Below, piece after piece: positions 9,274 to 25,406 of a stretch of 64,000 nt of DNA (position 1 is its first letter; every line of letters starts with the position of its first letter). Below the pieces are notes generated by a model. It was not told the origin of the DNA. It did no database searches and saw only the letters and a program-made list of their open reading frames with translations. The position numbers were made by a program, and so were the translations under genes. The DNA is taken from the NCBI GenBank assembly GCA_018607135.1, contig JABBCA010000082.1, forward strand, positions 1 through 64,000, written 5' to 3'. The stretch is from Opitutales bacterium. GTDB lineage: Bacteria > Verrucomicrobiota > Verrucomicrobiia > Opitutales > Coraliomargaritaceae.

Positions 9274-9283
9274 AATCTTAATC
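9251..9283. repeat. GATTA/AGATT word array forming the 5' end of the EEP gene
   Basis: On the minus strand the bases are built from repeated words (GATTAAGATTATGATTAAGA and so on) that resemble the arrays at 16884-17009, 18228-18304 and 54069-54095. The start codon and first eight codons of the EEP lipoprotein lie inside the array. Confidence 0.55.
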
Positions 9284-9331
9284 GCCTTTTCGTGATAAAG
9301 CCCATAAGTGGATTCATATTTAGACAAAGCA

Positions 9332-10165
9332 CTAAGGTAACCACGGATATTTGTTAAACTCTGGTGCGCGTTTTTCGTTCCAAGCCTTCCGTCCTTCTTC
9401 ACCCTCTTCAGTTAGGTAATAGAGTAAGGTCGCGTTGCCCGCCAACTCTTGAAGTCCTTGTTGACCATCCACATCGGCATTGAAAGCAGCTTTTAAACAA
9501 CGAATAGAGAGCGGGCTATGTTGCAAGATTTCACTCGCCCACTGCACCCCTTCAGCTTCGAGGTCTTCGTAAGGAACGACTTTATTGACTAAGCCCATGT
9601 CCATTGCCTCTTGAGCAGTGTATTGGCGGCATAGATACCAAATTTCTCGTGCTTTTTTATGTCCGACAATTCGCGCTAAATAGCTCGATCCGAACCCACC
9701 ATCAAAGCTCCCCACCTTCGGGCCCGTTTGACCAAAGACTGCATTGTCTGCCGCAATCGTCAGGTCGCACACTACATGTAACACATGGCCACCACCGATC
9801 GCGTAACCCGCAACGAGAGCGATCACCACCTTCGGCATCGAGCGAATGAGCTTTTGTAGATCTAAGACATTCAAACGAGGCACACCGTCCTTACCGATAT
9901 AACCACCCTTCTTGTGGCCACGGATCTTTTGATCACCACCAGCGCAAAAGGCAAATTTACCATCCGTCTGCGGATTGAACCCAGTAAGCAGCACCACACC
10001 GATCGAGGTATCTTCACGGGCATCGGTAAACGCTTCGATCAGTTCTGTCACCGTATCAGGCGTAAATGCATTACGACGATGGGGACGATTGATCGTTACT
10101 TTAGCGATTCCATCGCACTTCTCGTAAATGATCTCTTCAAATTCGCGGACCTTGTTCCAATTCAT
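9332..10165 (-). CDS. menB: 1,4-dihydroxy-2-naphthoyl-CoA synthase (menaquinone biosynthesis)
   Basis: Crotonase-fold enzyme that closes the second ring of menaquinone, converting o-succinylbenzoyl-CoA to 1,4-dihydroxy-2-naphthoyl-CoA in the cytoplasm. The 277 residues are typical of MenB. Visible features: [15 protein letters not shown], the oxyanion-hole and substrate segment [52 protein letters not shown] and the C-terminal [11 protein letters not shown] typical of MenB. Start ATG 10165 ([12 protein letters not shown]) was chosen over the longer ORF because upstream residues do not match the family. No other men genes are in the window. Confidence 0.95.
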
Positions 10166-10224
10166 AAGCCCACAACAGAAAGGATTCTTACGCCAAAAGC
10201 AACGCTGAGGACAGGAAAGTGAAA

Positions 10225-10929
10225 CTAATCGCCACCACAACCACCGCAGCCAGAATCGCTACCGCAGCTACCGCCACAACCACCAGGGCCACCAGGCCCC
10301 CCCTTCTTGTTCTTCTTGATGAGAATACAGATAGCCACAATTAGAAGAACACCTACAAAGATCACCCCAAATGGAATCGTAGAACTGGCGACAGCAATCA
10401 TACCGCAACCAGCTAGTCCCAAAGACAGCGTAATCGCGGTGACAGCCGCGACCAGCCGACTCTTCGAAAGCACTAGGTTCTTCGATGTATCCACCCGCTG
10501 AAAAGATTTCTTCTGCAAATACACCTCTATTGTAGGCCATAAATCATGCGCTGGTGTTTCTCCAAACACCACTAGGTATGAGCTCAAAGTCTGAGTATAC
10601 CAGTCCGTGAACTTTTCAGTTTCGTCTCTACCACCGCGAGTCGGACCATGGTGAATTTTTTGCCCCAATGTCTCGTTACAAAGTCGTATCCAATAAGACC
10701 GTGTATAGCACAGATGCAAATGCCAGACTTGATCCACCACATCCGAGGGCGCACAGGGATGACCTGCCTCACAACAAAGGTATACATAGCGCCGATACTC
10801 TTCGATTGCTCTTTCAGTAAAAAACTCCGTCCAGCCATTTTCGCGCGCGAGACGTGCCTTAAATGTAAACTCGTCGCCCTCCTCGTCGAACGAGAATGTT
10901 GCTAGAGCATTCCACAGTGTAGTGTTCAT
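10225..10929 (-). CDS. WHLH-motif domain protein with one membrane helix and Gly/Cys-rich tail
   Basis: A 234-residue protein in three parts. Residues 1-130 form a soluble domain with the line [16 protein letters not shown] and [13 protein letters not shown], resembling the N-terminal domain of glycine-rich-domain (GRDP/DUF1399-like) proteins. Then come two hydrophobic stretches around 160-205 ([43 protein letters not shown]), followed by a short basic KKNKK and a tail rich in Gly and Cys ([19 protein letters not shown]). The histidine pairs and Cys tail suggest metal binding, but this is inference. Neighbours menB and the cyclophilin give no functional clue. Confidence 0.7.
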
Positions 10930-10938
10930 CGGTGGAGC

Positions 10939-11586
10939 CTAAAATCCATTCGATTCAAGCACTGTATTCCACTGCGCGATACGCGCTTTTTGCTCTTCAA
11001 ACAAAACATCGGTATTGGTGAGCACTTTGATTTCTTTGATCTTATCGCCTTTGCGAACTGAGTTCACCACGAATTTACCTTTGGTAGCTTTGCCGAAGAC
11101 TGTGTGCTTACCGTCCAACCATGCAGTTTCACCATGGGTGATAAAGAACTGACTCCCGTTGGTGCCTGGCCCCGAGTTGGCCATCGAAAGGATGCCCCAG
11201 TTGTTGTGACGCAGCGCAGGGTGGATTTCGTTTTCAAACTTATAGCCAGGACCACCAGTGCCATTCCCCACTGGGTCACCCCCTTGAATCATAAAGTCTT
11301 CAATCACACGGTGAAACGTGAGCCCATTATAGTAGCCACGCTTGGCTAGATTTAGAAAGCTTGCCGCAGTCACCGGAGTCTTCGTCGCAAACACAGTAGC
11401 TTCAATATCACCACGATCGGTGACGATCACGATTTGAACATCACGAACATAATCGGGGCGTTCGACAGTGCCCAGTGGCTCAGCCGCTGGAGTCGACGTG
11501 GACGACACAGACGGCCCGGACGAGCTACAAGCAGCTAAGAAAAATAATGGAAGAAGGGCAAGGATCGATAGACGATGTAGGTGCAT
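10939..11586 (-). CDS. Cyclophilin-type peptidyl-prolyl cis-trans isomerase, lipoprotein
   Basis: Folding catalyst for Xaa-Pro bonds, predicted to act in the periplasm as a lipoprotein: signal [17 protein letters not shown], then a Ser/Pro/Ala linker. The cyclophilin core is clear: [60 protein letters not shown] and [10 protein letters not shown]. Most catalytic-site residues of bacterial cyclophilins are present (FHR, QGGDP, NGSQFFI). ATG 11586 is preceded by a GGAG ribosome site at good spacing, so it is preferred to the ORF-track start 18 bp upstream. Confidence 0.93.
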
Positions 11587-11712
11587 GTCTCCGATCTTCC
11601 GCATGTGTTAAGCAATGACAAGTATCGACTGAAAAATTACACCCGTATACATGATGTTGTAAAAGCACCTGTGGATGCAGACCATACAGAGCGATCGAAG
11701 CGTGTTTGTAGC

Positions 11713-12279
11713 TTAATCGATACCCAGCTTTTCACGACCAGCGGGCGAAATCATATGCGGTGTCCATGGCGGATCCCATACAATATCTACTTGTGCACCT
11801 GAAACAGCCTCCAAGGCCTCAATATTTTGCTTGGCATCATCTGCAATAACCGGGCCCATGCCGCAACCTTGAGCGGTAAGCGTCATCTTGACGTTGACCA
11901 AATGCTTACCTGCCTCATCAGGCTCTCCAATTTGCAGATCGTAGATCAAACCCAAGTCTACGATGTTTACTGGTATCTCAGGGTCGAAGCAGTGTTTCAT
12001 CGCTTCCCAAACCAACTCTTCGCTGAACGGGGAATTGCTATGGTCGGGCTCGGCCGCATTTGCGGCCGAGCTTAGTTCCGCCGCAGCCACATCGCCCAAT
12101 GCATCCCAGTCCTTACTCGCCAGTCGAAATAAACCTGAATCCGTGCGAATCGTCACCGTGCCGCCCAATGCCTGAGAAATCACGGCACGGGTGCCCGCTT
12201 TCAGGGTATGCTCTTCACCAGCAGGTATAATGGTCGCCACTGTATCTCTAGCAAGCGTCAGTTCTTCATTAAAACTCAT
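11713..12279 (-). CDS. sufT: Putative Fe-S cluster assembly protein SufT (MIP18 family)
   Basis: A 188-residue protein: an N-terminal segment typical of SufT (EELTLARDTVATIIPAGEEHTLKAGT, GGTVTIRTDSGLFRL), then a MIP18/DUF59 domain (VWEAMKHCFDPEIPVNIVDLGLIYD, MTLTAQGCGMGPVIADD, WDPPWTPHMISPAGREKLGI). SufT takes part in Fe-S cluster maturation or delivery in the cytoplasm. The start at ATG 12279 is chosen because the family begins MSFNEE-like. The remaining suf genes are not in the window. The gene faces a divergent exported-protein gene. Confidence 0.9.
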   Translation of the reverse strand: MSFNEELTLARDTVATIIPAGEEHTLKAGTRAVISQALGGTVTIRTDSGLFRLASKDWDALGDVAAAELSSAANAAEPDHSNSPFSEELVWEAMKHCFDPEIPVNIVDLGLIYDLQIGEPDEAGKHLVNVKMTLTAQGCGMGPVIADDAKQNIEALEAVSGAQVDIVWDPPWTPHMISPAGREKLGID

Positions 12280-12454
12280 GCTTCTGAAACAGAGTGAATA
12301 AAGACATACTGTCAATCCAGCTCGACGAGATTCTACTTCTAGCAAGCTGCAAGTGTCTAATACACGACCCTACTACGAAAAATGTCTTGGCACAGATGTA
12401 TCAATTTCTCAACTTAGATTTCCCCTCACTTCGTTAGCAATAACAAGATTCCCT

Positions 12455-13720
12455 ATGCTCAATCATTCCCCCAGAACTTGCCTCAAAGGCATCTTATTTA
12501 CCGCTGCTTTGATGCTAGCACTCTGCTGCCACGGTGCACCACACAACCAAGAGCCTTTAGATTTAAGCATACTTGAGGAACGAAATACACTCAGGCAAAC
12601 CATGAACGCCAGTCAGCGCGTCACCCTACTCAAACTTGAAGCTGCAGTCGAGAAGGCTGCGTCTGACATACAATCTGCAGACTACCTTATACAAACCAAG
12701 ATCAGTGCATTTAGGGATCAAAAAGAGGTGCAAGAGATGGTCAAGCAAGGCGAAGCACAAAAGAAAATCGCAGAAATCGAACTCGATACCGCACAGCGCG
12801 AACTAGTCGCATTCCTAACAAACTTCAACTCAGAGCGTGACGCTCAGCTGGCCGTCGCTGCGAAAAAGTTTAATTTCACTTTAGAATCCACGACTTACGA
12901 AAAAGCATTCACTCAGTCGACAAAATCACTCCTAGCCTTCGCTCGCACTAAAGGATACAGCACAGTTCTGTTTGACCATATCTTTATTAGTGACCGCGAC
13001 GGCACAAAAAGAATCTCAGCTCAGGCACGCAACCAAGCATATGATACCATCGTTGATATTGACGGCACTCACTTTACGGTGAGCGTCCCACAAAACCTCA
13101 AACTCAATGAATCCTCAGAGCTCACTTTCGATGGGGCGCAAAGCTACGAGGGCAAAAAGCTAGCGCTTCTCGCGATCGAGCTCATTGACGCGACCGCAGA
13201 GCAAGGCCTGCTCTTCATGCGCCTTTTAGACATACAGTCTCATGAAATTATCAATCACACGCTCATTCCGGTGAGTGCGATTACTCCACTTGCAAATACG
13301 GAAGATGAGGAAGGAAGCGAAGAAGTCACAATGGCTGTCGAAACCGAAAAGGCCAGCGAGGACCCTCTCGCACTCACACAAGCAGCACCGCTACCGATTG
13401 GCGCTCAAATTCTAGACACCTCAATGTGGATCGACCGTCTGGCGCTTCTACCCTACTCCTTTCAAATTGTTTCAGCGACGTCAGAATCTCTCGTGCCACA
13501 AATCTACCTTGCTCACGCAGTCACCACCAACACAGACATGCGGATTGCAGACGATGGATTTCTACAACGCGCCTACGGCGACACCGAACAAACATTCACA
13601 AGCCAAGCAAGTGCCGAACTTAAACTCAGCGCACATGGCGAAGCGCACGCACTCAGTGCACTTTCTTACAATAATGATCGAGTCATTGCGATAGGCACCT
13701 TCAGCCTAGTCAACGAGTAG
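12455..13720 (+). CDS. Exported hypothetical protein with N-terminal coiled coil
   Basis: About 421 residues from ATG 12455, which places a signal peptide at the very start (LKGILFTAALMLALCCHGA). The mature N-terminal third is strongly helical and charged (RVTLLKLEAAVEKAASDIQ, VQEMVKQGEAQKKIAEIEL), likely coiled coil. The rest is beta-rich, with the passage VSVPQNLKLNESSELTFDG and an acidic stretch EDEEGSEE near residue 290. I recognise no family. The ORF-track start (GTG 12353) would place 34 non-signal residues in front and is unlikely. Probably envelope-located. Confidence 0.7.
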   Translation: MLNHSPRTCLKGILFTAALMLALCCHGAPHNQEPLDLSILEERNTLRQTMNASQRVTLLKLEAAVEKAASDIQSADYLIQTKISAFRDQKEVQEMVKQGEAQKKIAEIELDTAQRELVAFLTNFNSERDAQLAVAAKKFNFTLESTTYEKAFTQSTKSLLAFARTKGYSTVLFDHIFISDRDGTKRISAQARNQAYDTIVDIDGTHFTVSVPQNLKLNESSELTFDGAQSYEGKKLALLAIELIDATAEQGLLFMRLLDIQSHEIINHTLIPVSAITPLANTEDEEGSEEVTMAVETEKASEDPLALTQAAPLPIGAQILDTSMWIDRLALLPYSFQIVSATSESLVPQIYLAHAVTTNTDMRIADDGFLQRAYGDTEQTFTSQASAELKLSAHGEAHALSALSYNNDRVIAIGTFSLVNE

Positions 13721-14048
13721 TCAGCGGTCTTCATTTGCAGTATCGAAGACAGGGAAGGAGCTCCGAGCGTCGAAGAGTAAAGTCCAGACACGTAGCTCAG
13801 ACATTCCTGTCTGGCTCTCCCAGAGCAAGCCCCTACAGAAAGTCCTGATTTCCATTAGCTAACTGTAGCTGAAATCATAAGATTTTGGACGAACGGCCGC
13901 TCAGCTTCGCACACTCCAAAACGTTGCCGCATCGGCTGTGTATACTCAGCGCAAACTGCCTTAGCTGGTGGAACACGCGCAACGCATCTCAGATTCCATA
14001 TATTGTCGCTTTGACAACTCAAGCGCTCGGCGCGATACCTTTAGTCTG
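13721..14048 (+). other. Intergenic region upstream of moaC, containing repeat copy A
   Basis: 328 bp without a credible gene. It carries one copy of a ~140 bp repeat (13761-13900) whose second copy lies after moaD. Within the copy a hairpin CCAGACA/TGTCTGG is visible. The remaining ~150 bp before moaC show no motif I recognise; I looked for a Moco riboswitch and could not support one. Confidence 0.5.
13761..13900 (+). repeat. Dispersed ~140 bp repeat, copy A (before moaC)
   Basis: Aligns by eye at roughly 75 percent with 15405-15545. Shared blocks include CAGACATTCC, CCCAGAGCA, GATTTCCA, TAACTGTAGC, GAAATC and AGATTTTG in the same order and spacing. It is in direct orientation relative to the second copy, and together they bracket moaC-mobA-moaD. 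Confidence 0.7.
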
Positions 14049-14519
14049 ATGGAATTTACACATATCGATAAAGATCAACGTCCCACCATGGTGGATGTCT
14101 CTCAAAAAGCCCCTTCTGAGCGTATCGCAATCGCTGAAGGCTTCGTTTACCTCGGCACCGAACTTATGCAGGCATTTACCGATGCAGGTTGGAGCTCAAA
14201 GAAAGGTCCGATACTTGACACCGCAATTATCGCAGGAACGATGGCAGCCAAGAAAACCTCAGAGCTGATCCCCTTCTGCCACCCCCTGAATTTAAAATCG
14301 GTAAAGATCGACATCGCCCCAGCAGATGAGGCGCGCCTACGCATCGAAGCTCGTGTTAAAGTCCTCGATCAAACAGGAGTCGAGATGGAAGCCCTTACTG
14401 CAGTCAGTGGTGCTGCACTCACAATTTACGATATGTGCAAAGCCGCTTCCAAAGACATCGTCATTGAGTCCACTCGATTGGTTAAAAAAACGGGCGGTAA
14501 GTCCGACTACTCGCGATGA
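14049..14519 (+). CDS. moaC: Cyclic pyranopterin monophosphate synthase MoaC
   Basis: Second step of molybdenum cofactor synthesis: turns the MoaA product 3',8-cyclo-GTP into cyclic pyranopterin monophosphate. The 156 residues match the family length. Hallmarks: MVDVSQKAPSERIAIAEG, KKTSELIPFCHPL, and GVEMEALTAVSGAALTIYDM. ATG 14049 (MEFTHIDKDQRPTMVDVS) is chosen; the ORF-track extension upstream lacks family similarity. The stop overlaps the mobA start (ATGA), so the genes are translationally coupled. Confidence 0.96.
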   Translation: MEFTHIDKDQRPTMVDVSQKAPSERIAIAEGFVYLGTELMQAFTDAGWSSKKGPILDTAIIAGTMAAKKTSELIPFCHPLNLKSVKIDIAPADEARLRIEARVKVLDQTGVEMEALTAVSGAALTIYDMCKAASKDIVIESTRLVKKTGGKSDYSR

Positions 14520-15106
14520 GCCATGGTATTTACGGACTCGTCTTGGTTGGCGGCAAGAGCGAGCGTATGGGCAGTGACAAAGCGCTGCTGACATACGGCA
14601 GCCAAGACACTCAACTCGAACGCACCGCAACGCTACTCCACACCGTTTGTGAACGCGTGTATGTTTCTCAGCGCAAAGAACAGAACTTTGAATGCCCTCA
14701 AATCGCTGAACCGATTTACGATTCGATCCAAGGCATCCACGGCCCACTTTGTGGAATTTTATCCGCAATGGCCACTCACCCAAACGCTCATTGGCTCGTG
14801 CTCGCATGTGACCTCCCATTCATCACACAAGCAACGCTCGAAAAACTCATTGCACACTTTCGAGCCACTCAGCCAAAACTCACCGCCTATCAAAGCACTT
14901 ACGACGGCTTACCCGAACCACTCTGCGCTCTCTACCCTAGTGGCAGTGATCAAGGGCTCATCGAACTCTCCAAAGAGCTGGGCAAAAGCTGCCCTCGAAA
15001 GCTACTCATCGTTCAACAAGCACAACTCGTCCAACAAGACGATCCTCGCAGCTTAGATAATATCAATACCGCAGAAGAATACGCACGAACCATCGAGACT
15101 ATTTAA
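14516..15106 (+). CDS. mobA: Molybdenum cofactor guanylyltransferase MobA
   Basis: Nucleotidyltransferase that attaches GMP to molybdopterin, giving the bis-MGD-type cofactor used by DMSO-reductase-family enzymes. The 196-residue protein has the family signature LVGGKSERMGSDKALL at the N-terminus (GTP binding), IHGPLCGILSAM and the metal-binding LACDLPFI. Overlaps moaC by 4 bp and precedes moaD by 5 bp. Could be a MobA-like paralogue acting on another nucleotide, but the operon favours the Moco role. Confidence 0.9.
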   Translation: MSHGIYGLVLVGGKSERMGSDKALLTYGSQDTQLERTATLLHTVCERVYVSQRKEQNFECPQIAEPIYDSIQGIHGPLCGILSAMATHPNAHWLVLACDLPFITQATLEKLIAHFRATQPKLTAYQSTYDGLPEPLCALYPSGSDQGLIELSKELGKSCPRKLLIVQQAQLVQQDDPRSLDNINTAEEYARTIETI

Positions 15107-15111
15107 CTCTT

Positions 15112-15351
15112 ATGCAGATCAAGATTCTCTACTTCGCCCAACTTGCTGACCTAGCAGGTAAAACAGTCGAAACACGCAAACTCAGTAGCCACTCTCCAGC
15201 AGACTTATACGCCGAACTCAAAGCTGCCTATCGTTTCCCACACGACTTCAAGCAACTGCAAGTCGCCATCAACCACGAGCTCTCCGCACACGAAGCCGAG
15301 CTCAAAGACGGCGACGAAGTTGCCTTCCTCCCGCCAATGACTGGCGGCTAA
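15112..15351 (+). CDS. moaD: Molybdopterin synthase sulfur carrier subunit MoaD
   Basis: A 79-residue ubiquitin-fold protein ending in the required Gly-Gly (LPPMTGG), whose thiocarboxylate donates sulfur to cyclic pyranopterin monophosphate. Start MQIKILYFAQLADLAGK is typical for MoaD, as is the C-terminal DGDEVAFLPP. Last gene of the moaC-mobA-moaD operon. The partner moaE, as well as moaA and moeA, are not in the window. Confidence 0.93.
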   Translation: MQIKILYFAQLADLAGKTVETRKLSSHSPADLYAELKAAYRFPHDFKQLQVAINHELSAHEAELKDGDEVAFLPPMTGG

Positions 15352-15404
15352 GCCAACTAGAAGTGAACATACAAAAGTCATACACAGAGGAACCGACAGC
15401 GGAA

Positions 15405-15545
15405 CGTCCAAGGTCAAATTCTGAAGTCTGGATGCGTAGATGAGACATTCCAGTCTGACGTTCCCAGAGCAGCCCGCCCTAGAGTGTCCCGATTTCCACG
15501 GGTTAACTGTAGCCGAAATCGTGAGATTTTGAACCAAAGACCGCC
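15405..15545 (+). repeat. Dispersed ~140 bp repeat, copy B (after moaD)
   Basis: Second copy of the repeat at 13761-13900, same orientation, about 75 percent identical by eye (CGTAGATGAGACATTCC, TTCCCAGAGCAG, TAACTGTAGCCGAAATCGTG). The spurious minus-strand ORF 15205-15537 runs through it. Confidence 0.7.
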
Positions 15546-15882
15546 GTGTGTCCCCCTTCCCAGCCGCAGGTTTTACACTACGACACGCTCAAGGCAGACA
15601 GGTGGAGCCTCGACTCCCTGAAACTGACAACGCTGTAATGACGCGCAGGGCCCAGTCTTCGTAATCGCTTCGACTTGACAGGCATACACCGCCATCAAGA
15701 AACAATTATCTAAATTGGAAGCGCGGACCTCCGTGTCGGCATCCGTTTGATTTGCGACCTTCCCATAGCGCACTGGTGTCCGGACCTAGTCGGACGCTCT
15801 CGCCTGGAGGGTTAAGACGGAACCCCCACAGACTTGACTTAATTGCGCCCTACGCCGATTCTCGTCGCTTCATTTTTTCACT
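15546..15882 (+). other. Intergenic region upstream of nadA with small hairpins
   Basis: About 340 bp without a credible gene. Contains REP-like hairpin-forming segments: CAGGTGGAGCCTCGACTCCCTG near 15599 and a region around 15720-15800 with GGACCTCCGTGTC and GTCCGGACCTAGTCGGAC. A TTGACT box near 15834 could be part of a nadA promoter, but a convincing -10 is not visible. The short ORFs here (for example 15573-15773) have no coding character. Confidence 0.45.
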
Positions 15883-16866
15883 ATGGCTACTGAGACACTC
15901 AACTACGAACCTATGGTATTTAATCCTCGCACAGAGGAGACACCGCTTTCTGCGATTCAGGAGGAAGTGCTGAAGCTTAAAAAAGAGCGAAATGCCGTCA
16001 TCTTGGCGCATAACTACCAAGTAGACGAGATCCAGCGTGTTGCAGACTATGTAGGTGATTCCCTTGGGCTCGCCTACCAAGCGGCAGAAGCCGAGCAAGA
16101 CAGTATCGTATTCTGCGGAGTGCACTTTATGGCAGAAACTGCCAAGATCGTGAATCCTTCCAAGACCGTGCTCCTTCCTGATATGGAAGCGGGTTGCTCG
16201 CTCGCCGACTCCTGCCCTGCCGAAAAGCTGGCTGCCTACAAGGAGGCGAATCCAAATGTTTATGTGGTCGCCTACATCAATTGCTCGGCAGCGGTGAAAG
16301 CACTTTGTGATGTGATCTGCACTAGCGGCAACGCGAAGAAGATCATCGAAAACGTGCCAGCCGACCGCGATATTCTCTTCGTGCCGGATCAAAATCTAGG
16401 TCAATGGGTGTCCAAGCAGACCGGCCGCGAAATGCAACTCTGGCCAGGCTCGTGCTACGCGCACGTGCTGTTCACACAGCAAGCGATTGAAAAGATTAAA
16501 TTGAAGTTTCCAGAAGCCCTTGTGGTCGCCCACCCTGAATGCGTGGAAACCGTGCGCGATAATGCCGACGAAGTCTGCAGCACCGAGAAGATGATTGGTT
16601 TCTGTAAAGACAGCGACGCCGAGCAATTCATCGTGGTCACCGAGCCAGGCATGATCCACCGCCTCCAACGCGAAGTGCCCAGCAAGACGTTCATCGCCGG
16701 CCCAACCGATACCTGCGCCTGCAACGAGTGCCGCTTCATGAAGATGAACACCATCGAGAAGCTCCGCAATTGTCTCCGCGACATGACCCCAGCAATCGAG
16801 ATGGAAGAATCGATGCGTGAAAAAGCCTTCGTGCCCTTGAAGCGCATGTTGGACTGGAGCCGCTAG
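15883..16866 (+). CDS. nadA: Quinolinate synthase NadA
   Basis: [4Fe-4S] enzyme condensing iminoaspartate with dihydroxyacetone phosphate to quinolinate in de novo NAD synthesis. 327 residues. Family features: AVILAHNYQVDEIQ near residue 40, DSLGLAYQAAE, FCGVHFMAETAKI, a cysteine in MEAGCSLADSCPA, the segment HPECVE, and a C-terminal CACNECRFMKMNT cysteine cluster for the cluster ligand. nadB and nadC are not in the window. Ends before a word-array repeat. Confidence 0.96.
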   Translation: MATETLNYEPMVFNPRTEETPLSAIQEEVLKLKKERNAVILAHNYQVDEIQRVADYVGDSLGLAYQAAEAEQDSIVFCGVHFMAETAKIVNPSKTVLLPDMEAGCSLADSCPAEKLAAYKEANPNVYVVAYINCSAAVKALCDVICTSGNAKKIIENVPADRDILFVPDQNLGQWVSKQTGREMQLWPGSCYAHVLFTQQAIEKIKLKFPEALVVAHPECVETVRDNADEVCSTEKMIGFCKDSDAEQFIVVTEPGMIHRLQREVPSKTFIAGPTDTCACNECRFMKMNTIEKLRNCLRDMTPAIEMEESMREKAFVPLKRMLDWSR

Positions 16867-16883
16867 GCCCCGCCTTCATCTCA

Positions 16884-17009
16884 CTCCTAATCGTAATCTT
16901 AATCCTCTCTGGATGACGTTCGCTCAGTGATTGAGATTAGCAAGTGTCAGTCTTTCCGACTGTGCACGCCACCTCTGCGCCATTGAGATTACGATTAGGA
17001 GGAAGATTG
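16884..17009. repeat. Inverted word-array pair between nadA and the MFS gene
   Basis: Left arm CTCCTAATCGTAATCT (16884-16899) is an exact 16-bp inverted match to right arm AGATTACGATTAGGAG (16986-17001). Both arms continue with further GATTA-type words (TTAATCC on the left, GAAGATTGA on the right). The 86-nt middle shows no gene. The right arm ends 13 bp before the MFS start codon and contains its only AGGAGG. Confidence 0.75.
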
Positions 17010-17022
17010 AAACTTTATCACC

Positions 17023-18213
17023 ATGGATTCCAACGCCGAACAAACGTATCGCTACGATAAGCTGCGGGCACCGTTTTATGGTATCCTTGAGGCTGGGTGG
17101 AGCGCGTTTGCTTTGGTCATCGCGATCCGCTATTTTGAAGCGCCTGAGAAGTTCAAGGCTTTGATCGCGGGTGCGTGGTCGATGGGGTTCTTACTGACTC
17201 CGGTCACGCTCTACTTAGTCGCAAAACTACGTAAAGAGCCGCACCTCGCGTGTGCATTGATGTTTGGCACCTCTGCGGTGCTGATGATCGGTGCGACGCT
17301 CGCGCAAAGCCTTGTTCTGTATACCCTGTTGATCATGCTCGCTCAGATCGCGACCGCACAACAAGGGCCGCTCATGCTACAGATCTACGCAGAGAACTAT
17401 TCAGCCAAGGAACGCGGCAGTCGAATGACGGTGCCGTTTATTTTGACGGCGATTTGTGCGGTGCCATTCTCCTACTTTGGAGGTCTGCTACTCGACCTCT
17501 CGATTGAGTATTATCGAATCCTCTTCGTGATCATCATGTTGGCTGCGGTCGCTGCGGCATTCGCGGTCTACCGGATGCCAAGTCAGCCGATGTCGACTGA
17601 GCACATCGGCAATCCTTGGCAGAATTTTAGCCTGATATGGGAGGATCGCTTATTTGGATTTCTATGTGGTAGTTGGATGTTGCTCGGCTTTGGCAATTTG
17701 ATCACCCTCCCCATTCGTATCGAGTATCTGGCCAATCCACTGTATGGGATCAACGCCGACAACACCACGATTGGCTTGCTTATCGTCGTCGTGCCAGCCA
17801 TTGCACGCATCCTCGGCACAAAGCTGTGGGGGCGCTTGTTTGATAACATGCACCTAATCAGCACGCGCAACCTGCTGAACATTTTCTTTATACTCAGTAT
17901 CGGTTTCTTCTTTTTCTCCACCAACATCATCATGCTCACCGTCGGCATGGCGTTCCTAGGGTTTGCTATGGGCGGTGGTAAAATCATCTGGAGCCTCTGG
18001 GTGACGAAGATTGCGCCCGATCATAAGGCATCATCCTATATGAGCATCCACATGGCACTCACCGGCCTACGCGGATCCGTGGCACCGTTTATCGGCTATT
18101 GGATCTTAAGCCAATCCGCGCCGATCTATGTCGCGATGGCAGGCATGATGTTGATCCTTGTATCCATGGCGCTGTTTGAAGTCGTGCGAAGCCATCCCCG
18201 ATTTAACGCGTAG
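17023..18213 (+). CDS. Major facilitator superfamily (MFS) transporter
   Basis: Inner-membrane protein of 396 residues with around 11-12 hydrophobic segments, for example WSAFALVIAI, MGFLLTPVTLYLVA, TLLIMLAQIATAQQGPLM, FVIIMLAAVAAAFAVY, NIIMLTVGMAFLGFAMGGG and VAMAGMMLILVSMALFEVV. A cytoplasmic-loop motif (NYSAKERGSRMTVP) matches the MFS pattern in which a new helix follows ERG-R. Substrate is unknown. It lies alone between two inverted word arrays; the arms upstream supply the AGGAGG but at an unusually long distance from the ATG. Confidence 0.85.
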   Translation: MDSNAEQTYRYDKLRAPFYGILEAGWSAFALVIAIRYFEAPEKFKALIAGAWSMGFLLTPVTLYLVAKLRKEPHLACALMFGTSAVLMIGATLAQSLVLYTLLIMLAQIATAQQGPLMLQIYAENYSAKERGSRMTVPFILTAICAVPFSYFGGLLLDLSIEYYRILFVIIMLAAVAAAFAVYRMPSQPMSTEHIGNPWQNFSLIWEDRLFGFLCGSWMLLGFGNLITLPIRIEYLANPLYGINADNTTIGLLIVVVPAIARILGTKLWGRLFDNMHLISTRNLLNIFFILSIGFFFFSTNIIMLTVGMAFLGFAMGGGKIIWSLWVTKIAPDHKASSYMSIHMALTGLRGSVAPFIGYWILSQSAPIYVAMAGMMLILVSMALFEVVRSHPRFNA

Positions 18214-18227
18214 TGAAGTCTAATCAT

Positions 18228-18304
18228 AATCTGACTCTTCATCCGAATCTCCACGGCTCAGCTGGAACACAGAGCGGGAATGGATTAGGATGAGGAGTCA
18301 GATT
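18228..18304. repeat. Inverted word-array pair between MFS and DUF3500 genes
   Basis: Left arm AATCTGACTCTTCATCC (18228-18244) pairs with right arm GGATGAGGAGTCAGATT (18288-18304), 16 of 17 positions, separated by 43 nt. Neighbouring words TAATCATAAT and GGATTA belong to the same word family as at 16884. It lies between the 3' ends of two convergent genes and could act as a bidirectional transcript end. Confidence 0.7.
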
Positions 18305-18314
18305 AAGACGGGCA

Positions 18315-19328
18315 CTAATGTGACTCTTCAATGTGCCGCTTCAAAGCATCGTAGCCAAAATCATTTTCAAAATCGCGCCAGACCGAGTGCGAGTGGTTTC
18401 CTTCATTCTGCACGTTGGCATACTCCAAAAGAAAGGTGGGCCCTTGAACTCGGTAATACATCGGCTTACTCTGCTCTTTTGAGCCTGCCCAAGTAAACGT
18501 GATCTTTTCAAAACCTGCAGCATCGATCTTCCCCATGTCATCATCTGCGATGAGTGTTTTGTAGCGAGCTACGTATTCAAGAATCAATACTCGCAACTGA
18601 TCCACTTGCTCCCGAGTCATCTCCGCAGCTAATAAGCCCGACGGGGCAAAGGCTGCGACTTTGCGATCTCCACGGGTAATTATCTCACGGATCGGATCCT
18701 CGGAGATTTTCGCTTTTGATAATTGCTCCGTATTGAGCATCGCGATCAATTTCAATGCTTGATCCGCTTCAGCCGCTAAAGGTCTTTTCTGCATAGATTC
18801 ATTGTGTGTATAACGATCCGGATTGGAGCCCATGAAGGAGGGTGTCACAAAAACCTCATGCCCATCGACCACTGTCAGATTGATCGAAAGATGGTGTCCT
18901 TCAATCGCCACGCCCCATGACTTGGTTGTGCTCGGCTCTCCAAATACTGTAATAAAATAATTCTCTGGGTTCCGATACTTCGACCTTCCTGAGCGCTCCC
19001 ACAGCACATGCTCTGCACCGATCACACCTTTGGCTTTGTCATGCCCCGACTCACTGAAAACGATCACGAAGACCTGTTTCGATAAATGCTTCTGCTCTGG
19101 CGTCATCGCCGCCCAGGGCAAGCCTTTGCGCTGTTTCGGCACATAGTGCCAATCACTGCGTTGCTGCGATGTGAACGGAACCCGTGTTTGCTTCAATTGT
19201 GCTCCATCAAGCGAGTCGAGATAGGCGGTCACTGCTGCGGCCATGGGTTCGATCAGGTCGCTCTCATGGGCGTGTGTCGTAGCAGGTAAATAAAGAGCAA
19301 GAATGAGTAGAAGCTGATAGAGGCGCAT
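18315..19328 (-). CDS. DUF3500 family exported protein
   Basis: 337 residues with a cleavable signal peptide (MRLYQLLLILALYLPATTHA). The mature protein matches the DUF3500 pattern: RVPFTSQQRSDWHYVPKQRKGLPWAAMTPEQK, then YFITVFGEPSTTKSWGVAIEGHHLSINLTVVDG, and near the end ITFTWAGS...YYRVQGPTFLLEYAN with HSHSVWRDFENDFG. The family is exported and widespread in Verrucomicrobiota and Planctomycetota; its biochemical role is not established. Repeated His residues and the HLSINLTV strand suggest a metal-dependent fold (inference). Adjacent to the sugar-conversion cluster. Confidence 0.88.
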   Translation of the reverse strand: MRLYQLLLILALYLPATTHAHESDLIEPMAAAVTAYLDSLDGAQLKQTRVPFTSQQRSDWHYVPKQRKGLPWAAMTPEQKHLSKQVFVIVFSESGHDKAKGVIGAEHVLWERSGRSKYRNPENYFITVFGEPSTTKSWGVAIEGHHLSINLTVVDGHEVFVTPSFMGSNPDRYTHNESMQKRPLAAEADQALKLIAMLNTEQLSKAKISEDPIREIITRGDRKVAAFAPSGLLAAEMTREQVDQLRVLILEYVARYKTLIADDDMGKIDAAGFEKITFTWAGSKEQSKPMYYRVQGPTFLLEYANVQNEGNHSHSVWRDFENDFGYDALKRHIEESH

Positions 19329-19336
19329 ATCGGAAA

Positions 19337-19424
19337 GGAGTTAGCAGGTAGCATTTAGGAGTTAGCTCTGCTCGGCAATTGTTTCTGGAATCTCTGGTCT
19401 ACATAGGCTAACTGCTAATTGATT
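19337..19424. repeat. GTTAGC word array upstream of the DUF3500 gene
   Basis: GGAGTTAGCAGGTAGCATTT followed by AGGAGTTAGC (19337-19366) and an opposing arm GGCTAACTGCTAATTGATTA (19405-19424) form an imperfect inverted repeat (TTAGCAGGTAGC against GCTAACTGCTAA, 11 of 12). The arm nearest the gene ends about 8 bp from its start codon. Confidence 0.6.
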
Positions 19425-19441
19425 ATTTATAGCTGCTGAAT

Positions 19442-20239
19442 CTAGGAACTAGATAATCCTTGATACGCTTGGCGCAATGCTGCGATTGCATCGCCTTTCG
19501 GCATGAACTCGTGGCCGACATATAAATCGTAGCCCGTGGCACGAATCGCCTTTGCAAGTGCGGGATAGTTAATCTCCTGTGCATCATCCAAATCATTACG
19601 CCCGGGCACACCAGCGGTATGGTAATGGCCTATCCATTGAGCGGCGCGCTGTATATTGGAAATCAAATTCCCTTCCATGATCTGCATGTGGTAAATATCG
19701 TAGAGAATCTTACAACGTGGACTATTGACCCTTTCACACAAGCTCACTGCCCAGTCAGTGTGATCACAGAGATAATATGGGTGATCGACAGTGGAATTGA
19801 GCAGCTCCATGTTTAGGTTCACACCCTTCTCTTCAGCATAGGGCGCAATCCGCTTCAGACCCTCCGCACAGATTTCTAAGGCCTCAGTATCACTCTCACC
19901 AGAGTTGCGATGTCCGCTCAAAGTGATCAGTCCCGGGATCTCATACTTCGACGCGAGATCAATGGATTCGCGAAGCTCTGCGACGAGGCGTTCATGATTG
20001 GCACGACGCGAAAAACCTTCTGCATGCGAACCATCGGTCGGTGATTCATGGCCGTGGCCGACAAAGGAAACAACTCGTAAGCCTCTCGAAAGCGCCGCAT
20101 CAATCAGTTCCTCAAACTGAGGCTCCGGACTCCAGAACTCAACTGCAGAAAATCCAACGGATTTCACTTCATCTAAAAAATCACCCAGTGAATCCGTTTC
20201 TGGTTTCATCATGGGAACGACTACGGATTGTTTAAACAT
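19442..20239 (-). CDS. Hydroxypyruvate isomerase-like TIM-barrel protein
   Basis: A 265-residue AP-endonuclease-2/xylose-isomerase-like TIM barrel. Key residues seen: GFSAVEFWSPE, NMELLNSTVDHP (metal-binding Glu), KILYDIYHMQIMEGNL (Asp-His pair characteristic of the Hyi group), IGHYHTAGVPGRNDL and YDLYVGHEFMPKGD. Likely interconverts hydroxypyruvate with tartronate semialdehyde or a related ketose. ATG 20239 is chosen (MFKQSVVVPMMKP); an AGGAGG lies 15-20 bp upstream. Separated from the Gfo/Idh gene by a terminator, so probably transcribed on its own. Confidence 0.85.
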   Translation of the reverse strand: MFKQSVVVPMMKPETDSLGDFLDEVKSVGFSAVEFWSPEPQFEELIDAALSRGLRVVSFVGHGHESPTDGSHAEGFSRRANHERLVAELRESIDLASKYEIPGLITLSGHRNSGESDTEALEICAEGLKRIAPYAEEKGVNLNMELLNSTVDHPYYLCDHTDWAVSLCERVNSPRCKILYDIYHMQIMEGNLISNIQRAAQWIGHYHTAGVPGRNDLDDAQEINYPALAKAIRATGYDLYVGHEFMPKGDAIAALRQAYQGLSSS

Positions 20240-20362
20240 CGTGACTTTGGATCCTTTCCTCCTGTCTGCTCTTGGCAATTGTTCAAATCTTGAAATAGAT
20301 ATTCAGTAAAATCCAACGCGACCGCTTCGAAAAGTTTCATCGATAACTCTAATACAATAAAA

Positions 20363-20393
20363 GGCCACGCATCCCTAACCTAGATGCGTGGCC
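20363..20393 (-). terminator. Intrinsic terminator after the Gfo/Idh gene
   Basis: Perfect 11-bp stem GGCCACGCATC/GATGCGTGGCC with a 9-nt loop. Read on the minus strand it is followed by TTTTATTGTATT. It lies about 115 bp past the stop of the 20507-21799 gene and before the isomerase start. Confidence 0.8.
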
Positions 20394-20506
20394 ACCCTAC
20401 ACAACTAGACGAACCACTATTAACCATCATAAATCGAAGCCACACTCAGAAATCACGACGCTGTAGATATATTTTCATATAGGAATTCAGGTTTCAAAGA
20501 TTCGGC

Positions 20507-21799
20507 TTAATACTCTTTCCAGTCTTTTGCTTCACCAGGAACTGCAGGCAGTTCATTTGGCATCTCGACTTCGCCGTTTTCAAAATCAAGAGCTGCAGGT
20601 GAGAGCGTAAAGTTGTAGTAAGGTGATTTCACATTTTCTGAAACGTCGACCCAACGTATCAATTTACCAGTATAAGCTGCCATACGGCCGGCAATCGCAC
20701 ACAGAGTCGCATCGGCAACCTCGCGAGAACGATTCATTGGTTCACCTTTACCACGCACACTCTTCAACAAGTCTACGTGCTCTTGAATAATACCTGAAGT
20801 ATGCGCGACAATAATTGGATCAATCTTCACCTCTTTACCAGAGACTTTCACACCGTTGATAAATCCCTTAGTGCCACGGAAGCTCTCGCCAACACGATTG
20901 TAGCAACCTGCGATTTGACGGCACTGACTGTGAATGTGAATGCCGTCCCCGTAATCCATATCGACGCTGAAGAAATCAAACTGATTGCCCCCCGCGACTT
21001 CGCGGCGCGCACAGCCTCCGTAACCGATGAAGGCCTTCGGCATACGTCCCATCAACCAATTCGTTACGTCTAACTGGTGGACGTGTTGCTCAACAATGTG
21101 GTCTCCCGACATCTCAGTAAAATTCAGCCAATTACGCGTAAGAAAGTCTGCATTACTCATTCCAGGCGTGCGAGTCGCCTTCCACAAGGTGCCCATATTC
21201 CATGAGATTGAGCCGCCCACAATGTCGCCAATCGCACCTGCGGCGACCTTAGCAGCCATTTCTAGATAGCTTTGTCGATGTCGACGCTGCGTGCCTGCAA
21301 CCACTGTTAACCCCTTTGATTTAGCGAGCTCACCGACTGCGATGACCTTACGTGCTCCGACTGGATCGACTGCAACAGGCTTCTCGATGAAACAATGCTT
21401 ACCTGCTTTCACGCAAGCTTCAAAATGAACAGGACGAAATGCCGGCGGTGTCGCCATCAACACCACTTCAGCATCGGAATTTGCTACCTTGTGATAGGCA
21501 TCGAAACCATAATGAACTTTAGAAGTATCCAGTTTATACCCACTCGCGACTTTCTCGACCCTATCTTGAAACGCATCGGCCAGTGCAACGACCTCGACTT
21601 CAATACCAAGAAGCCCTGCCGCTTCATGGAAGTTCCTCAATGCACCCCCACCACGGCCACCACATCCAATCAGCCCCACCTTAATCTTACTGGTATGGAT
21701 ACCACTCGCAGTTTGCGCTCCGAGTATATTAAATGAGGAAAGCGCGGCTGAGGATACCGCAGCGGCTTTAACAAAATCGCGTCGTGTTACGTTGTTCAT
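20507..21799 (-). CDS. Gfo/Idh/MocA family oxidoreductase, Tat-exported
   Basis: NAD(P)-dependent sugar dehydrogenase-type protein, 430 residues. A twin-arginine signal leads (NVTRRDFVKAAAVSSAALSS), then the Rossmann motif VGLIGCGGRGGGALRNF, and the family sequence GKHCFIEKPVAVDP with the catalytic-type EKP lysine. The C-terminal domain holds MSGDHIVEQHVHQLDVTNWL. Such Tat-exported versions are common in PVC bacteria and are linked to oxidation of sugars or glycosides. First gene after the two ThuA genes in the same direction; the four genes probably form one catabolic unit. Confidence 0.93.
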   Translation of the reverse strand: MNNVTRRDFVKAAAVSSAALSSFNILGAQTASGIHTSKIKVGLIGCGGRGGGALRNFHEAAGLLGIEVEVVALADAFQDRVEKVASGYKLDTSKVHYGFDAYHKVANSDAEVVLMATPPAFRPVHFEACVKAGKHCFIEKPVAVDPVGARKVIAVGELAKSKGLTVVAGTQRRHRQSYLEMAAKVAAGAIGDIVGGSISWNMGTLWKATRTPGMSNADFLTRNWLNFTEMSGDHIVEQHVHQLDVTNWLMGRMPKAFIGYGGCARREVAGGNQFDFFSVDMDYGDGIHIHSQCRQIAGCYNRVGESFRGTKGFINGVKVSGKEVKIDPIIVAHTSGIIQEHVDLLKSVRGKGEPMNRSREVADATLCAIAGRMAAYTGKLIRWVDVSENVKSPYYNFTLSPAALDFENGEVEMPNELPAVPGEAKDWKEY

Positions 21800-21820
21800 T
21801 TTGAATGTATTGGGGATTAA

Positions 21821-22627
21821 TTACTTAGAGGTTTTTAGATTCTCAGCTACAGGCCGACCTGCTGCCCAGAGGAAGCCACGAGTGAGCATCTGCATGTAGT
21901 TGGCCTCCATCATCGTTTCGTTGTGATGACCAATCGTGGTCGCAAATACACGTGTCTTATTTGGACCATAGTAACTCACCCAGATGTTCGGATGCAGGAC
22001 CCCATCTTTTTCAGATTTAGATTTCGCTAACACAGTCGTCTGAGGAAAGACCTTTTCAATAAAGTAGAGCTCTCCATTTGGAGTCGTCCAATTTTCCAAG
22101 CCCTTCATGACCTCATGCTCAGGCAATTCGATCTGCACTTCGAACGGATGCTTAGGGCCGTGCCGAGGTGTATGCACTCCACAGAACTCATACCAATCCT
22201 CGGCATTCGCCCCTTCACGGTAACTATGCATCGAGCAATGCACTAACACCGCTGGCACACCATCTAAATGAGGTTGAAGTATGCCAGCAATGTAATCCTC
22301 ATCACCAATCTGCGCAAAGCATTCATTATGGACGACGACATCGTAGCCCTTGGCCCAATCTGGGTTCTTGTAGAAATCCAAGAGGACATTCCCCGCCTTG
22401 GTGCGCTGATGTAAAAGGGTCCACTGCACACGCAGCCCAGTATGCGTATCAATCATCGCGGGGATCAACTCACGCTGTGTATCATAATCATGGCAGCAGC
22501 CCCCAGTAATCAACAAGGCCTTGATCTCTGGCTTAGGGGAACGTTTAGGCTTTGCCGAAAGACTTGCCGTAAGGACTGCAGTGATCCCTGCTAGAAGCAA
22601 AAAACGAGGCATTCGTAGAAACTTCAT
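21821..22627 (-). CDS. ThuA domain protein, exported (copy 1)
   Basis: 268 residues with an N-terminal signal segment ([17 protein letters not shown]). ThuA-like (type 1 glutamine amidotransferase-like fold) features: [21 protein letters not shown] at the start of the domain, [26 protein letters not shown] with the nucleophile-elbow-position Cys, and a C-terminal [14 protein letters not shown]. ThuA proteins in Rhizobium act on 3-keto-disaccharides; here it probably works with the oxidoreductase on a keto-sugar (inference from context). Lies 7 bp from the second ThuA gene. Confidence 0.9.
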
Positions 22628-22634
22628 AGTGGGG

Positions 22635-23549
22635 CTATTTCTGTTTAGGTTTGGGATAGTCTTGATTCAGTTCGAGGTCGGCATCAGTTGGCGTGCTTGA
22701 GGGCACACCCTTTTCGGGTATGTCTAGATGTGCGGTCCAGGCGATCGCATTGAGGACTGTTTTTCTAAAGTCATCTTGCTGCCAGTTCTTATGAAAGTGC
22801 CCACCTGTAAAACCAAAGCTACGTCCACCGTTCTCACGTTCGTAGGCCCAAGCCACTACTTGCTCTTTACCTGCTTTGACCTCCGCAAGAACCGTCGGAT
22901 TACTGACTCGGCCTGGATTATTGTCTTTGCGCTCTGTTAACGTTTCGAGCGGAGGTAGAGCCGATAGTATGGGGGTCACGCCTTTCATTTCTGGCTGAAA
23001 ACGCATGTGATAATACCACTCGTCGAGAATGCTAAACGGCTTTACACCATTTGCAATTGGGTGATCTGGAAAGACCGAGAACTCGGCGGTCCAATGTGGA
23101 TTGACCGACCACCCTACGGCAAAGTAACCGCCCAACCATTCAAGGAATTGCTCTCCCATCACTTCAGGTTCAACTTCAACTGCGAAGTGTAAGCATGAAA
23201 CGCCAACACCTTGATCGACCCAGTCCTGTATAGTTGCTTGGTGCGCTTTCGCCATGTGGTTCTTATACCCGTCACAATACATCACTATGGCGTCGGGCAT
23301 CGCATCCTCATCAACGATTTCGGGCCATGCGCCCTCAGTCACCACGGTTGCGTTCACTCCAAGGCCGCTCTCGTTCAGGCACTTGGCAAGTAGCATGGAG
23401 CCAGCACGGTGCTCATGTGCACCATAGCCATGGCTCTTCTTACCAGCTAAGAAGATAACCTCCTTGGTATCGTCCGAAGACTCTAAATGTAGTCCACAAC
23501 CACTGCTAAGGACTATGAAACAAAGAATCGCGGTTGATGAAGCTTTCAT
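22635..23549 (-). CDS. ThuA domain lipoprotein (copy 2)
   Basis: 304 residues, lipoprotein signal [14 protein letters not shown]. ThuA-type domain: [62 protein letters not shown] (Cys-His position), [36 protein letters not shown] near the end. Clearly diverged from the copy next to it, so the pair is probably an old duplication or two independently recruited members. Same strand and 7 bp from copy 1. Role inferred as periplasmic sugar processing. Confidence 0.9.
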
Positions 23550-23579
23550 GAGTAACTGATTTTATTAACGATTAAAGTG

Positions 23580-24431
23580 TTATAATGATTTCCACGTTTC
23601 TTGCAGAAATTGAATACCCTCTACTGAGATCTGTCTTGGGCTGTCATAGAGCTTACGCCAGATTGAGGTCGCTTTAGCAAGCACCTCATTATCCGAAGTA
23701 AAGCTCTCTATCACGATATCTCCTTGATAGTGGATCGCTTTTAACGCAGCGAGCACACTCGACCAATCGACTTGGTCCTCACCGATCAATCCACGGTGAC
23801 TGGCGCTAGCATGAACATGCCCAATGTGATCCGCCGCCGCCATAATGGCCGCCGCAGAGTCCGCTTCCTCGATATTCATATGAAACGTGTCCACGTGTAT
23901 TTTCAACGCAGGACTTCCGACTCGCTCGATTAGATCAGTCGCTTGTGCGAGTGTGTTAATACAATCCGTCTCAAATCGATTTAAAGGCTCAATTGCGATA
24001 ATGAGGCCCGCGGCTTCCGCTTGTTTGCACAGGGGCTTCAAGTTTTCAGTAATTAGATTGAGTTGCGCCTCTCTTTCTTCTGCTGAGTAGCGATCCGCGT
24101 GCCCAGTCTCTGAATAAAAAGGACCACATACCACCTTCGAACCCAGTTGCTCCGCAAGCACGATCAACTCACTGATAAACTGAATAGAGTGTTGCTGCTC
24201 CTCGGCAGTGCCACGCAAGTCTCGGCCTGGAACCATCGCGCCACAAACGATGGGCCGTTCCATATTTGCAGTCTTTAGGGCGTCCACGACCTTGGATGCT
24301 GTGATACCGCTGACATCGACAATTGCCAATTCGATGACGTCCGCACCGTAAGACTTGAATTCTTGAATCAAGGGTATGTCCGCATCGGAAAAACCAGTGC
24401 TCACGAGAAATGTGTTGAGGCCGAATCGCAT
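23580..24431 (-). CDS. Sugar phosphate isomerase/epimerase (D-tagatose/psicose 3-epimerase-like)
   Basis: A 283-residue TIM-barrel enzyme. The four metal-ligand positions of the ketose 3-epimerase group can be seen: IAIEPLNRFETDCIN (Glu), IHVDTFHMNIEE (Asp, His), IGHVHASASHRG (His) and DIVIESFT (Glu). The N-terminal MRFGLNTFLVSTGFSDADI fits the family. Likely epimerises a free ketose. First gene of the leftward sugar cluster, 99 bp from the divergent PAS-AraC regulator, which presumably controls it. Confidence 0.9.
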   Translation of the reverse strand: MRFGLNTFLVSTGFSDADIPLIQEFKSYGADVIELAIVDVSGITASKVVDALKTANMERPIVCGAMVPGRDLRGTAEEQQHSIQFISELIVLAEQLGSKVVCGPFYSETGHADRYSAEEREAQLNLITENLKPLCKQAEAAGLIIAIEPLNRFETDCINTLAQATDLIERVGSPALKIHVDTFHMNIEEADSAAAIMAAADHIGHVHASASHRGLIGEDQVDWSSVLAALKAIHYQGDIVIESFTSDNEVLAKATSIWRKLYDSPRQISVEGIQFLQETWKSL

Positions 24432-24530
24432 GGGGTAAAATCAGTAGTCAGCTAAAATAACATATTTACAGCTTTGAACCTTGGAAATAATCAGCATTTT
24501 TGTGTATAAAATCGGCATCACATACAAATT
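24432..24530. promoter_or_regulatory. Divergent promoter region of the sugar cluster and its AraC regulator
   Basis: 99 bp, AT-rich, between two divergent start codons. TGTATAAAAT near 24501 and AAATAACATATT near 24450 are plausible -10-type elements for opposite directions. A CAGCATTTT...ATCGGCATC pair could be the half-sites of an operator. I cannot fix the sites by eye. Confidence 0.4.
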
Positions 24531-25274
24531 ATGGCTAACTCAGTGACTCAGGCTCCCAATCGTGAAGACATCGACCCCAATAGTATCCTCGCACTCTTTT
24601 CAGGCTTGGGTGACATTTATTTCTTCATGAAAGATACCACAGGCCGCTTTCTTGGAGGCAATCAACTACAACTCAAAAAACTCGGCTTAAATTCAGAGCA
24701 GGAACTCATCGGTAAGACGGATTTCGACTTTTTTCCCAGCTATATGATCAGTCACTATGCCGAAGACGATGCGCAGGTGATACAAACTGAGACACCGATC
24801 CTTCGTCGTGTTGAATTGGTCGCAAATACCGACGGCTCCGTTTCCTGGTATATCACCAGTAAATTCCCACTCTACAATCGCAAGGGCGATTGCATCGGTA
24901 TCGTTGGCTACATGCGTGACTTCGAGCAAAGTGACGATGCGTGGCAGCCCTACCGCAGAATGAATGCAGCCGTTGAGTATATCAATCAGCACTACAGCGA
25001 AGCCATCGAAATTGAGCAGCTCGCCAAAGTCGCGAGCCTATCAATCAGTCAATTTGAACGTCGATTCCGCAAGGTGTTTGAACAAACCCCAACACGGTTC
25101 CTCATCCGCTACCGACTCACACGAGCCAGTCAGATACTGATGCATAGTGATGAGTCCATCAGTCAAATCGCTCAAAACGTAGGCTTCTACGACCACAGTC
25201 ATTTCACCCGTGAGTTTCGAAAGCTATTTGGTTTAGCGCCAGGACGCTACCGCCGAGAACACCAGCAAAAATAA
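24531..25274 (+). CDS. PAS domain AraC-family transcriptional regulator
   Basis: 247 residues. Residues 15-130 are a PAS sensor (DIYFFMKDTTGRFLGGNQ, ELIGKTDFDFFP, WYITSKFPLYNRKGDCIGIVGYMRD). Residues 140-245 are an AraC DNA-binding pair of helix-turn-helices (IEQLAKVASLSISQFERRFRK and ISQIAQNVGFYDHSHFTREF, ending FGLAPGRYR). Position divergent to the epimerase-ThuA-Gfo/Idh genes suggests it responds to a sugar-related signal and activates them. The PAS ligand cannot be inferred. Confidence 0.93.
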   Translation: MANSVTQAPNREDIDPNSILALFSGLGDIYFFMKDTTGRFLGGNQLQLKKLGLNSEQELIGKTDFDFFPSYMISHYAEDDAQVIQTETPILRRVELVANTDGSVSWYITSKFPLYNRKGDCIGIVGYMRDFEQSDDAWQPYRRMNAAVEYINQHYSEAIEIEQLAKVASLSISQFERRFRKVFEQTPTRFLIRYRLTRASQILMHSDESISQIAQNVGFYDHSHFTREFRKLFGLAPGRYRREHQQK

Positions 25275-25406
25275 GAGCTGATGTCGATTCAAGTGACGCA
25301 GAGCCTCAAAGAAGCAAGAACGTTCCTGTCCTTGTCGCGACAAGTGTATCCTAAACCCGACGAACAAAAATGTCCGCCCCCCCTAATCCTACTCTGACCA
25401 GCAGCC

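Follow-up and report, generated by a model that had tools for sequence, protein, structure and literature searches.

Intervening sequences of 23S rRNA that encode S23p carry a PF05635/TIGR02436 gene between inverted repeats, and these repeats can fold into a stem of about 28 bp (PMC4990558). In Coxiella, RNase III cuts the 28-bp terminal stem of the intervening sequence, and both the function and the origin of such sequences have been described as unclear (PMC4990558). Degenerate words in hairpin-forming arrays are known from cyanobacteria, where the STRR are hairpin-forming repeats of 7 bp whose function is not known (PMC2670836), and where the P6b region of the Nostoc trnL intron contains degenerate heptamer stems of the types TDNGATT and NNTGAGT (PMC4476775). 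PF05635 has furthermore been described as Avd-like, after the Avd protein of diversity-generating retroelements, and structural homology has been noted between 4DWL and 2GSC (PMC10053308). In REPIN/RAYT systems, many gene-less palindromes coexist with one or few cognate genes that are flanked by the same palindromes. TRAP, an oligomeric ring protein, binds repeats of (G/U)AG triplets with free spacer bases between them, and pairing is not needed for this binding.

Here, we describe a locus in a 64,000-nt stretch of DNA from an Opitutales bacterium (the whole stretch is called the window below) that resembles several of these systems in part. As in the 23S rRNA intervening sequences, its ends can form a long stem (a 20-bp helix). 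Unlike these sequences, GATTA elements lie outside rRNA and mostly between protein genes (nadA and an MFS gene in the present case), their arms are built of degenerate words in arrays, most copies are gene-less, conservation of pairing is not seen, and the 75-nt loop at this locus holds no S23p/PF05635 ORF. The degenerate words recall STRR and the trnL P6b heptamers, but they are hexamers and occur in Verrucomicrobiota rather than cyanobacteria; the literature searched does not connect STRR with four-helix-bundle genes. The genomic layout is that of REPIN/RAYT, whereas the cognate gene encodes a four-helix bundle instead of a Y1 transposase, and the GTAG/CGTC tag is absent from the consensus of the GATTA arms. 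MITEs differ in that the GATTA elements have no conserved internal sequence, with loops of 3–405 nt that vary also between orthologous sites, while a subset does share a longer context. TRAP offers an analogy only, binding by S23 proteins being a prediction. Word arrays that bracket dispersed four-helix-bundle genes are not described in the literature searched, which included few subscription papers and makes the novelty provisional.

The element between nadA and the MFS gene

The element lies between two genes in tandem, nadA for quinolinate synthetase A (15883–16866, plus strand; Pfam PF02445, E=9.7e-119) and a gene for an MFS transporter (17023–18213, plus strand; PF07690, E=2.7e-14). Its left arm (16874–16906) consists of five GATTA-type words on the minus strand, AGGATTAAGATTACGATTAGGAGTGAGATGAAG, and is followed by a loop of 75 nt (16907–16981) without an ORF and by a right arm on the plus strand (16982–17008; ATTGAGATTACGATTAGGAGGAAGATT), the end of which is 13–14 nt before the ATG of the MFS gene. 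The arm borders were set by a hexamer-array detector, for which the six arms detected in the window score at least 16 and the reversed window has none scoring 14 or more. Within the arms, the 16-bp word AGATTACGATTAGGAG is found exactly at 16884–16899 (minus) and 16986–17001 (plus), with 86 nt between, and a third exact match lies at 54069–54084 (plus). When up to three mismatches are allowed, the window contains six matches against 0.41 expected, a number that none of 100 shuffles reached. These results bear out the first-pass annotation, which had described the inverted 16-bp word, its extension on both sides into GATTA-like words, the end of the right arm 13 bp before the start codon, and further words near 9251, 18228 and 54069. 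They also supply the excess of words over controls that it had asked for, both in the window and genome-wide (45 places against none).

The same annotation had called the element a leader and had pointed to an AGGAGG in the right arm. The motif is indeed present (16997–17002), but it lies 20 nt from the ATG of the MFS gene, and the bias towards gene starts that had been proposed as a check is absent among 42 palindromes (see below); a role as leader or ribosome-binding site was therefore rejected. The view that the element is not a terminator holds, as 16840–17040 contains no terminator-like site and the combination of GC-rich stem and T-run of an intrinsic terminator is missing. A promoter-like site was not found at the element, nor was any Rfam match in 8500–26000. 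The element folds at -53.4 kcal/mol (z=-5.16) with a 20-bp helix.

GATTA arrays in the window, the genome and related species

Beyond the arms at 16874–16906 and 16982–17008, the detector locates arms at 9252–9283, 18221–18249, 18283–18308 and 54062–54091. A second, complete palindrome (18221–18308) sits between the convergent MFS and DUF3500 genes, with its left arm at 18221–18249 (minus) and its right arm at 18283–18308 (plus). A third has a right arm at 54062–54091 (plus), supported by the detector and the match to AGATTACGATTAGGAG, and a degenerate left arm at 53954–53975 (minus; CATCTGAATCTGACTCTGGATC), which is under the detector threshold and was assigned by eye. The arm at 9252–9283 (minus; GATTAAGATTATGATTAAGAGTAAGATTAAGA) is a single orphan. 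It provides an in-frame ATG (9273–9271) and codes for MIKSKIKKWFGCLLSLSALPLIGCAEK (frame checked by hand). In this way it makes up the lysine-rich beginning of a plausible lipoprotein signal peptide in a protein of the endonuclease/phosphatase family; apparently, a repeat arm has here been taken into coding sequence. Two further word families are represented in the window. A palindrome of GAACNTC heptamers (54585–54739) uses the word that brackets a four-helix-bundle gene on another contig of the same genome (C91) and belongs to a second family of dispersed words, found at 190 places genome-wide compared to 3 for the reversed control. The palindrome at 55220–55317 is built of AGTGGGTAGTG words and resembles the arms of the four-helix-bundle gene at locus L287.

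In the complete assembly (3.53 Mb, 106 contigs), AGATTACGATTAGGAG occurs with up to two mismatches at 45 places, and the pattern read backwards at none. Reading of 30 of the 45 places revealed pairs in inverted orientation, with GTCTTAATC...GATTAAGAC at the outer ends and loops that vary. The anatomy of the arms was derived from three genomes of the genus, which supplied 46 paired elements, with 86 of 92 arms aligned on the outer end. The consensus is GATTAA GATTAA GA(T/G)TA(A/G) GA(T/G)TAN GATTAA followed by GA(C), so that a typical arm is five times GATTAN plus GA(C), with sharp borders and an information content of about zero outside. Five words per arm is the mode (53 of 92 arms), and 21 arms have four. 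Position six of each word is almost unconstrained, the outermost word excepted, in agreement with the earlier description of the element as degenerate and self-similar. The palindromes at L011, L015, L018 and L020 are nested in a longer common context ending CTGTCTCAAAAA/TTTTTGAGACAG, perhaps a MITE that has captured an array.

The gene context of the palindromes was determined with simple codon-based gene calls. The gaps that hold the 42 palindromes with called neighbours are tandem in 28 cases, divergent in nine and convergent in five, and overlap with a gene never exceeds a few bases. Palindromes in tandem gaps lie at a median of about 38 nt from the following start codon and about 25 nt from the preceding stop, and thus there is no start bias.

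The stem at the nadA–MFS junction could act at the RNA level, as in the 23S rRNA intervening sequences: the arms would pair in the transcript and be cut by RNase III, by which the flanking messages (nadA and MFS) would be separated or adjusted, and pairing would matter rather than the word. The homologous S23 gene between inverted repeats, the RNase III-cut 28-bp terminal stem in Coxiella (PMC4990558) and the fold of the element (z=-5.2) all speak for such a role, as do complete elements that are often found between seemingly co-transcribed genes (gltB-gltD, cysD-cysN). However, an arm pairs with its partner no better than with an arm swapped in from another element (16.4 vs. 16.9), for which reason an exact palindrome was rejected as the functional unit. 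In addition, free positions match between partner arms at chance rate (0.28 vs. 0.27 for example), changes tolerated by G-U wobble in the sense orientation are not enriched (22 vs. 18), and the neighbours of 14 of the 42 copies are convergent or divergent. The missing covariation weighs against the RNase III model, the main alternative, which we regard as unlikely though worth keeping in mind. Since free positions do not covary between arms, the constraint appears to act on the words one by one and not on the pairing of the stem.

An element is present at the nadA–MFS junction in each of the three genomes of the genus, with unrelated loops of 75, 150 and 353 nt, the longest of which contains a nested pair. 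One genome of a sister genus (L064) has no element at this junction. In G010, a genome of the sister genus (L065), the junction beside the MFS gene has a different word family, GAGACTTGAGAGCTGA with its inverse. In the sister species G001 (L237), a repeated segment near 1700–2000, cggtcctggagggttgcgctctgtcgcaac, is inserted in the nadA–MFS element and recurs downstream of the MFS gene. Comparison of about 20 loci from two sister species revealed at least 10 sites of the own genome with an element at the orthologous place, and many copies are therefore old. At orthologous sites the word cores are conserved at 0.74 compared to 0.46 for the free base, and some arms are misregistered.

The junction between a coaBC-like gene and a gene for a PAS sensor kinase (names assigned from sequence) has the order arm-gene-arm in G000, G002, G010, G018 and G021 and is plain in G004, G005, G008, G011 and G014. 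In G001, the kinase of which is 92% identical to that of G000, the same junction contains the gene-less palindrome TCTTAATTATACTCTTACT-tcaatacctc-TAAAATTAAGATTAAGA. Among 38 genomes, the six with at least 22 arrays are those with the gene or, for G001, its remnant; the remaining 32 have at most nine arrays and no homologue of at least 60% identity. G001 has 28 arrays without the four-helix-bundle gene, and arrays may therefore persist in the absence of the protein. Loci L230 and L231 in G002 were considered as a recent duplication of a complete element, but they are identical over 4,834 bp including all flanks and are therefore an assembly duplicate, of no use for locating the ends of the element. 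Filled and empty sites similar enough in sequence to reveal a target-site duplication were not found.

Many dispersed intergenic copies, in complete and in gene-less form, of which some are nested in larger repeats ending CTGTCTCAAAAA/TTTTTGAGACAG, would also be expected of ordinary selfish foldback or MITE-like repeats that are spread by an unrelated transposase or by retron machinery, with the four-helix-bundle gene as a passenger. The arrays, however, do not track Y1 transposases (33 arrays in G002, where PF01797 has no match) or reverse transcriptases (none found in G002, G018 and G021), and the palindrome loops vary from 3 to 405 nt. A passenger gene would moreover not predict words that match the type of the four-helix-bundle protein. 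Selfish spread of this sort is, in our judgement, quite improbable. As Y1 genes do not follow the arrays, identity with REP/RAYT was rejected, in line with the first-pass annotation, which had denied that the element is a REP, and so was a link to diversity-generating retroelements, as reverse transcriptases do not follow the arrays.

Word arrays around four-helix-bundle genes

In its own genome, the GATTA word brackets a gene on contig C87 (L224:2485-2883), with arms 12 nt before the ATG and at the stop. The gene type is TIGR02436, four helix bundle protein (NCBIfam), and PF05635 (S23 family). PF05635 was searched in 38 relatives and the loci were fetched. GATTA arms bracket only one PF05635 type, 47–79% identical to the L224 copy, and no GATTA arm was found at PF05635 types with 27–46% identity to it. 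Complete relatives with an S23p/PF05635 ORF between the arms are L224, L230, L232, L241 and L242. The dispersed palindromes and the arms of this one four-helix-bundle type are thus the same arrays, and the element at nadA–MFS consists of two inverted GATTAN arms like those around the gene.

Outside the relatives, a pattern scan found arrays, among the matches listed, in records from Verrucomicrobia, Planctomycetes, Kiritimatiellae, Kuenenia, Desulfobacteraceae, Ignavibacteria/Melioribacter and SAR324, and several of these cross-phylum arrays, again among the matches listed, have a four-helix-bundle gene between the arms. Because these loci had been picked by array, the reverse search started from the protein only and covered 388 genomes of the phylum. 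Of the homologues with at least 50% identity (L313–L337), nearly all have arms, made of GATTA-type words or of drifted hexamers, and a pseudogene copy (L339) has none. Where drift occurred, the arm words changed jointly on both sides, to GAGAAC, GAGAAA or GAGCAC in one family and to GACAAA in two other genomes. A non-functional origin by slippage, with low-complexity repeats arising anywhere in intergenic DNA, would be in keeping with words that are short, degenerate and tandem and with the long simple arrays of some genomes. It is very improbable in view of the strict bracketing of one gene type, the sharp borders after five units, the reversed control with 0 matches, and the conservation of cores over the free base (0.74 vs. 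0.46) at orthologous sites where some arms are imperfectly registered.

Other S23 gene types have words of their own. Inverted arrays of AGAAGTTAG occur at gltB-gltD, of AGAAGTCAGGAG at cysD-cysN and of TAGTTCGAGT near rfb genes (neighbours named from sequence), and further words that flank four-helix-bundle genes include GGCACAAA and AATGATG, among others. On inspection, inverted word arms flank each of the seven four-helix-bundle genes in the own genome. In a sample of 52 four-helix-bundle loci, mainly the strongest Pfam matches per genome, inverted similarity of the flanks exceeds the 99% point of shuffles at 39 loci, compared to 2.7% for swapped flanks and 3.8% for 479 control ORFs (odds ratio 77, p=5e-34), among which several four-helix-bundle genes are present; the other 13 loci failed this test. 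Most of these statistics come from fetched samples rather than from all copies. Of 63 arms on each side, 49 upstream and 52 downstream are significantly periodic, with 5% expected. The period is mostly 6–8 nt and is equal in both arms in 38 of 42 cases, and the median length of 34 nt corresponds to 4.9 units. Words are shared by at most 1% of locus pairs below 50% protein identity, by 27% at 50–60%, by 76% at 60–80% and by 100% above, kinship being ignored in these counts. Word similarity tracks protein similarity, a correlation to which the common descent of entire loci could have contributed in part.

Eight four-helix-bundle loci on cyanobacterial plasmids were chosen as top matches of a protein search, regardless of their flanks. 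Strong inverted arrays are present at five (scores 23–31.5); a sixth is borderline (11.0), and the arrays of the remaining two are direct. The arm words (GGGAGTA, GGGAACA, GGGTGTA) resemble STRR heptamers and call to mind the heptamers of trnL P6b. In two cyanobacterial plasmids (L361 and L362), a four-helix-bundle gene with word arrays lies between cas6 and cas4 of a CRISPR locus.

S23 proteins and their predicted words

We consider it fairly likely that the element at 16874–17008 is a gene-less derivative of an element with the order array, S23/PF05635 gene, array, and that its arms are recognition sites of the cognate protein. Together, the data point to an undescribed pairing between the S23 proteins, a poorly understood family, and short repeated DNA words. 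Each four-helix-bundle protein would recognize its own word, and the arms would be the cis sites of a cognate S23 protein that is probably pentameric. Among PDB sequences, the only match is 2GSC (E=2.9e-10, five chains), for which five four-helix bundles have been described (Lin et al., 2006, as cited in PMC10053308). By the description given there, one subunit per word is plausible, with five words per arm. The protein is probably a pentamer by analogy with this one distant homologue. Gene-less copies such as that at nadA–MFS may be bound or mobilized in trans by the product of the gene on contig C87. The net charge of GATTA-type proteins, however, is 0 to -6 and does not speak for binding to nucleic acids.

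A wider proposal, which we put forward tentatively and hold to be possible but somewhat doubtful, is that S23-type proteins are a large unrecognized class of word-specific nucleic-acid-binding rings, each subfamily with its own degenerate word of 6–8 nt repeated about five times. S23 arms, gene-less palindromes, STRR heptamers and possibly the rRNA intervening sequences would then be one system, in which protein and word co-evolve. If each S23 subfamily has its own word, the questions about the intervening sequences and STRR share one testable answer. A large share of the unexplained intergenic repeats in several phyla would, if this is true, gain an identity and a cognate gene, and the natural pairs of word and protein would be a good system in which to study the evolution of recognition specificity.
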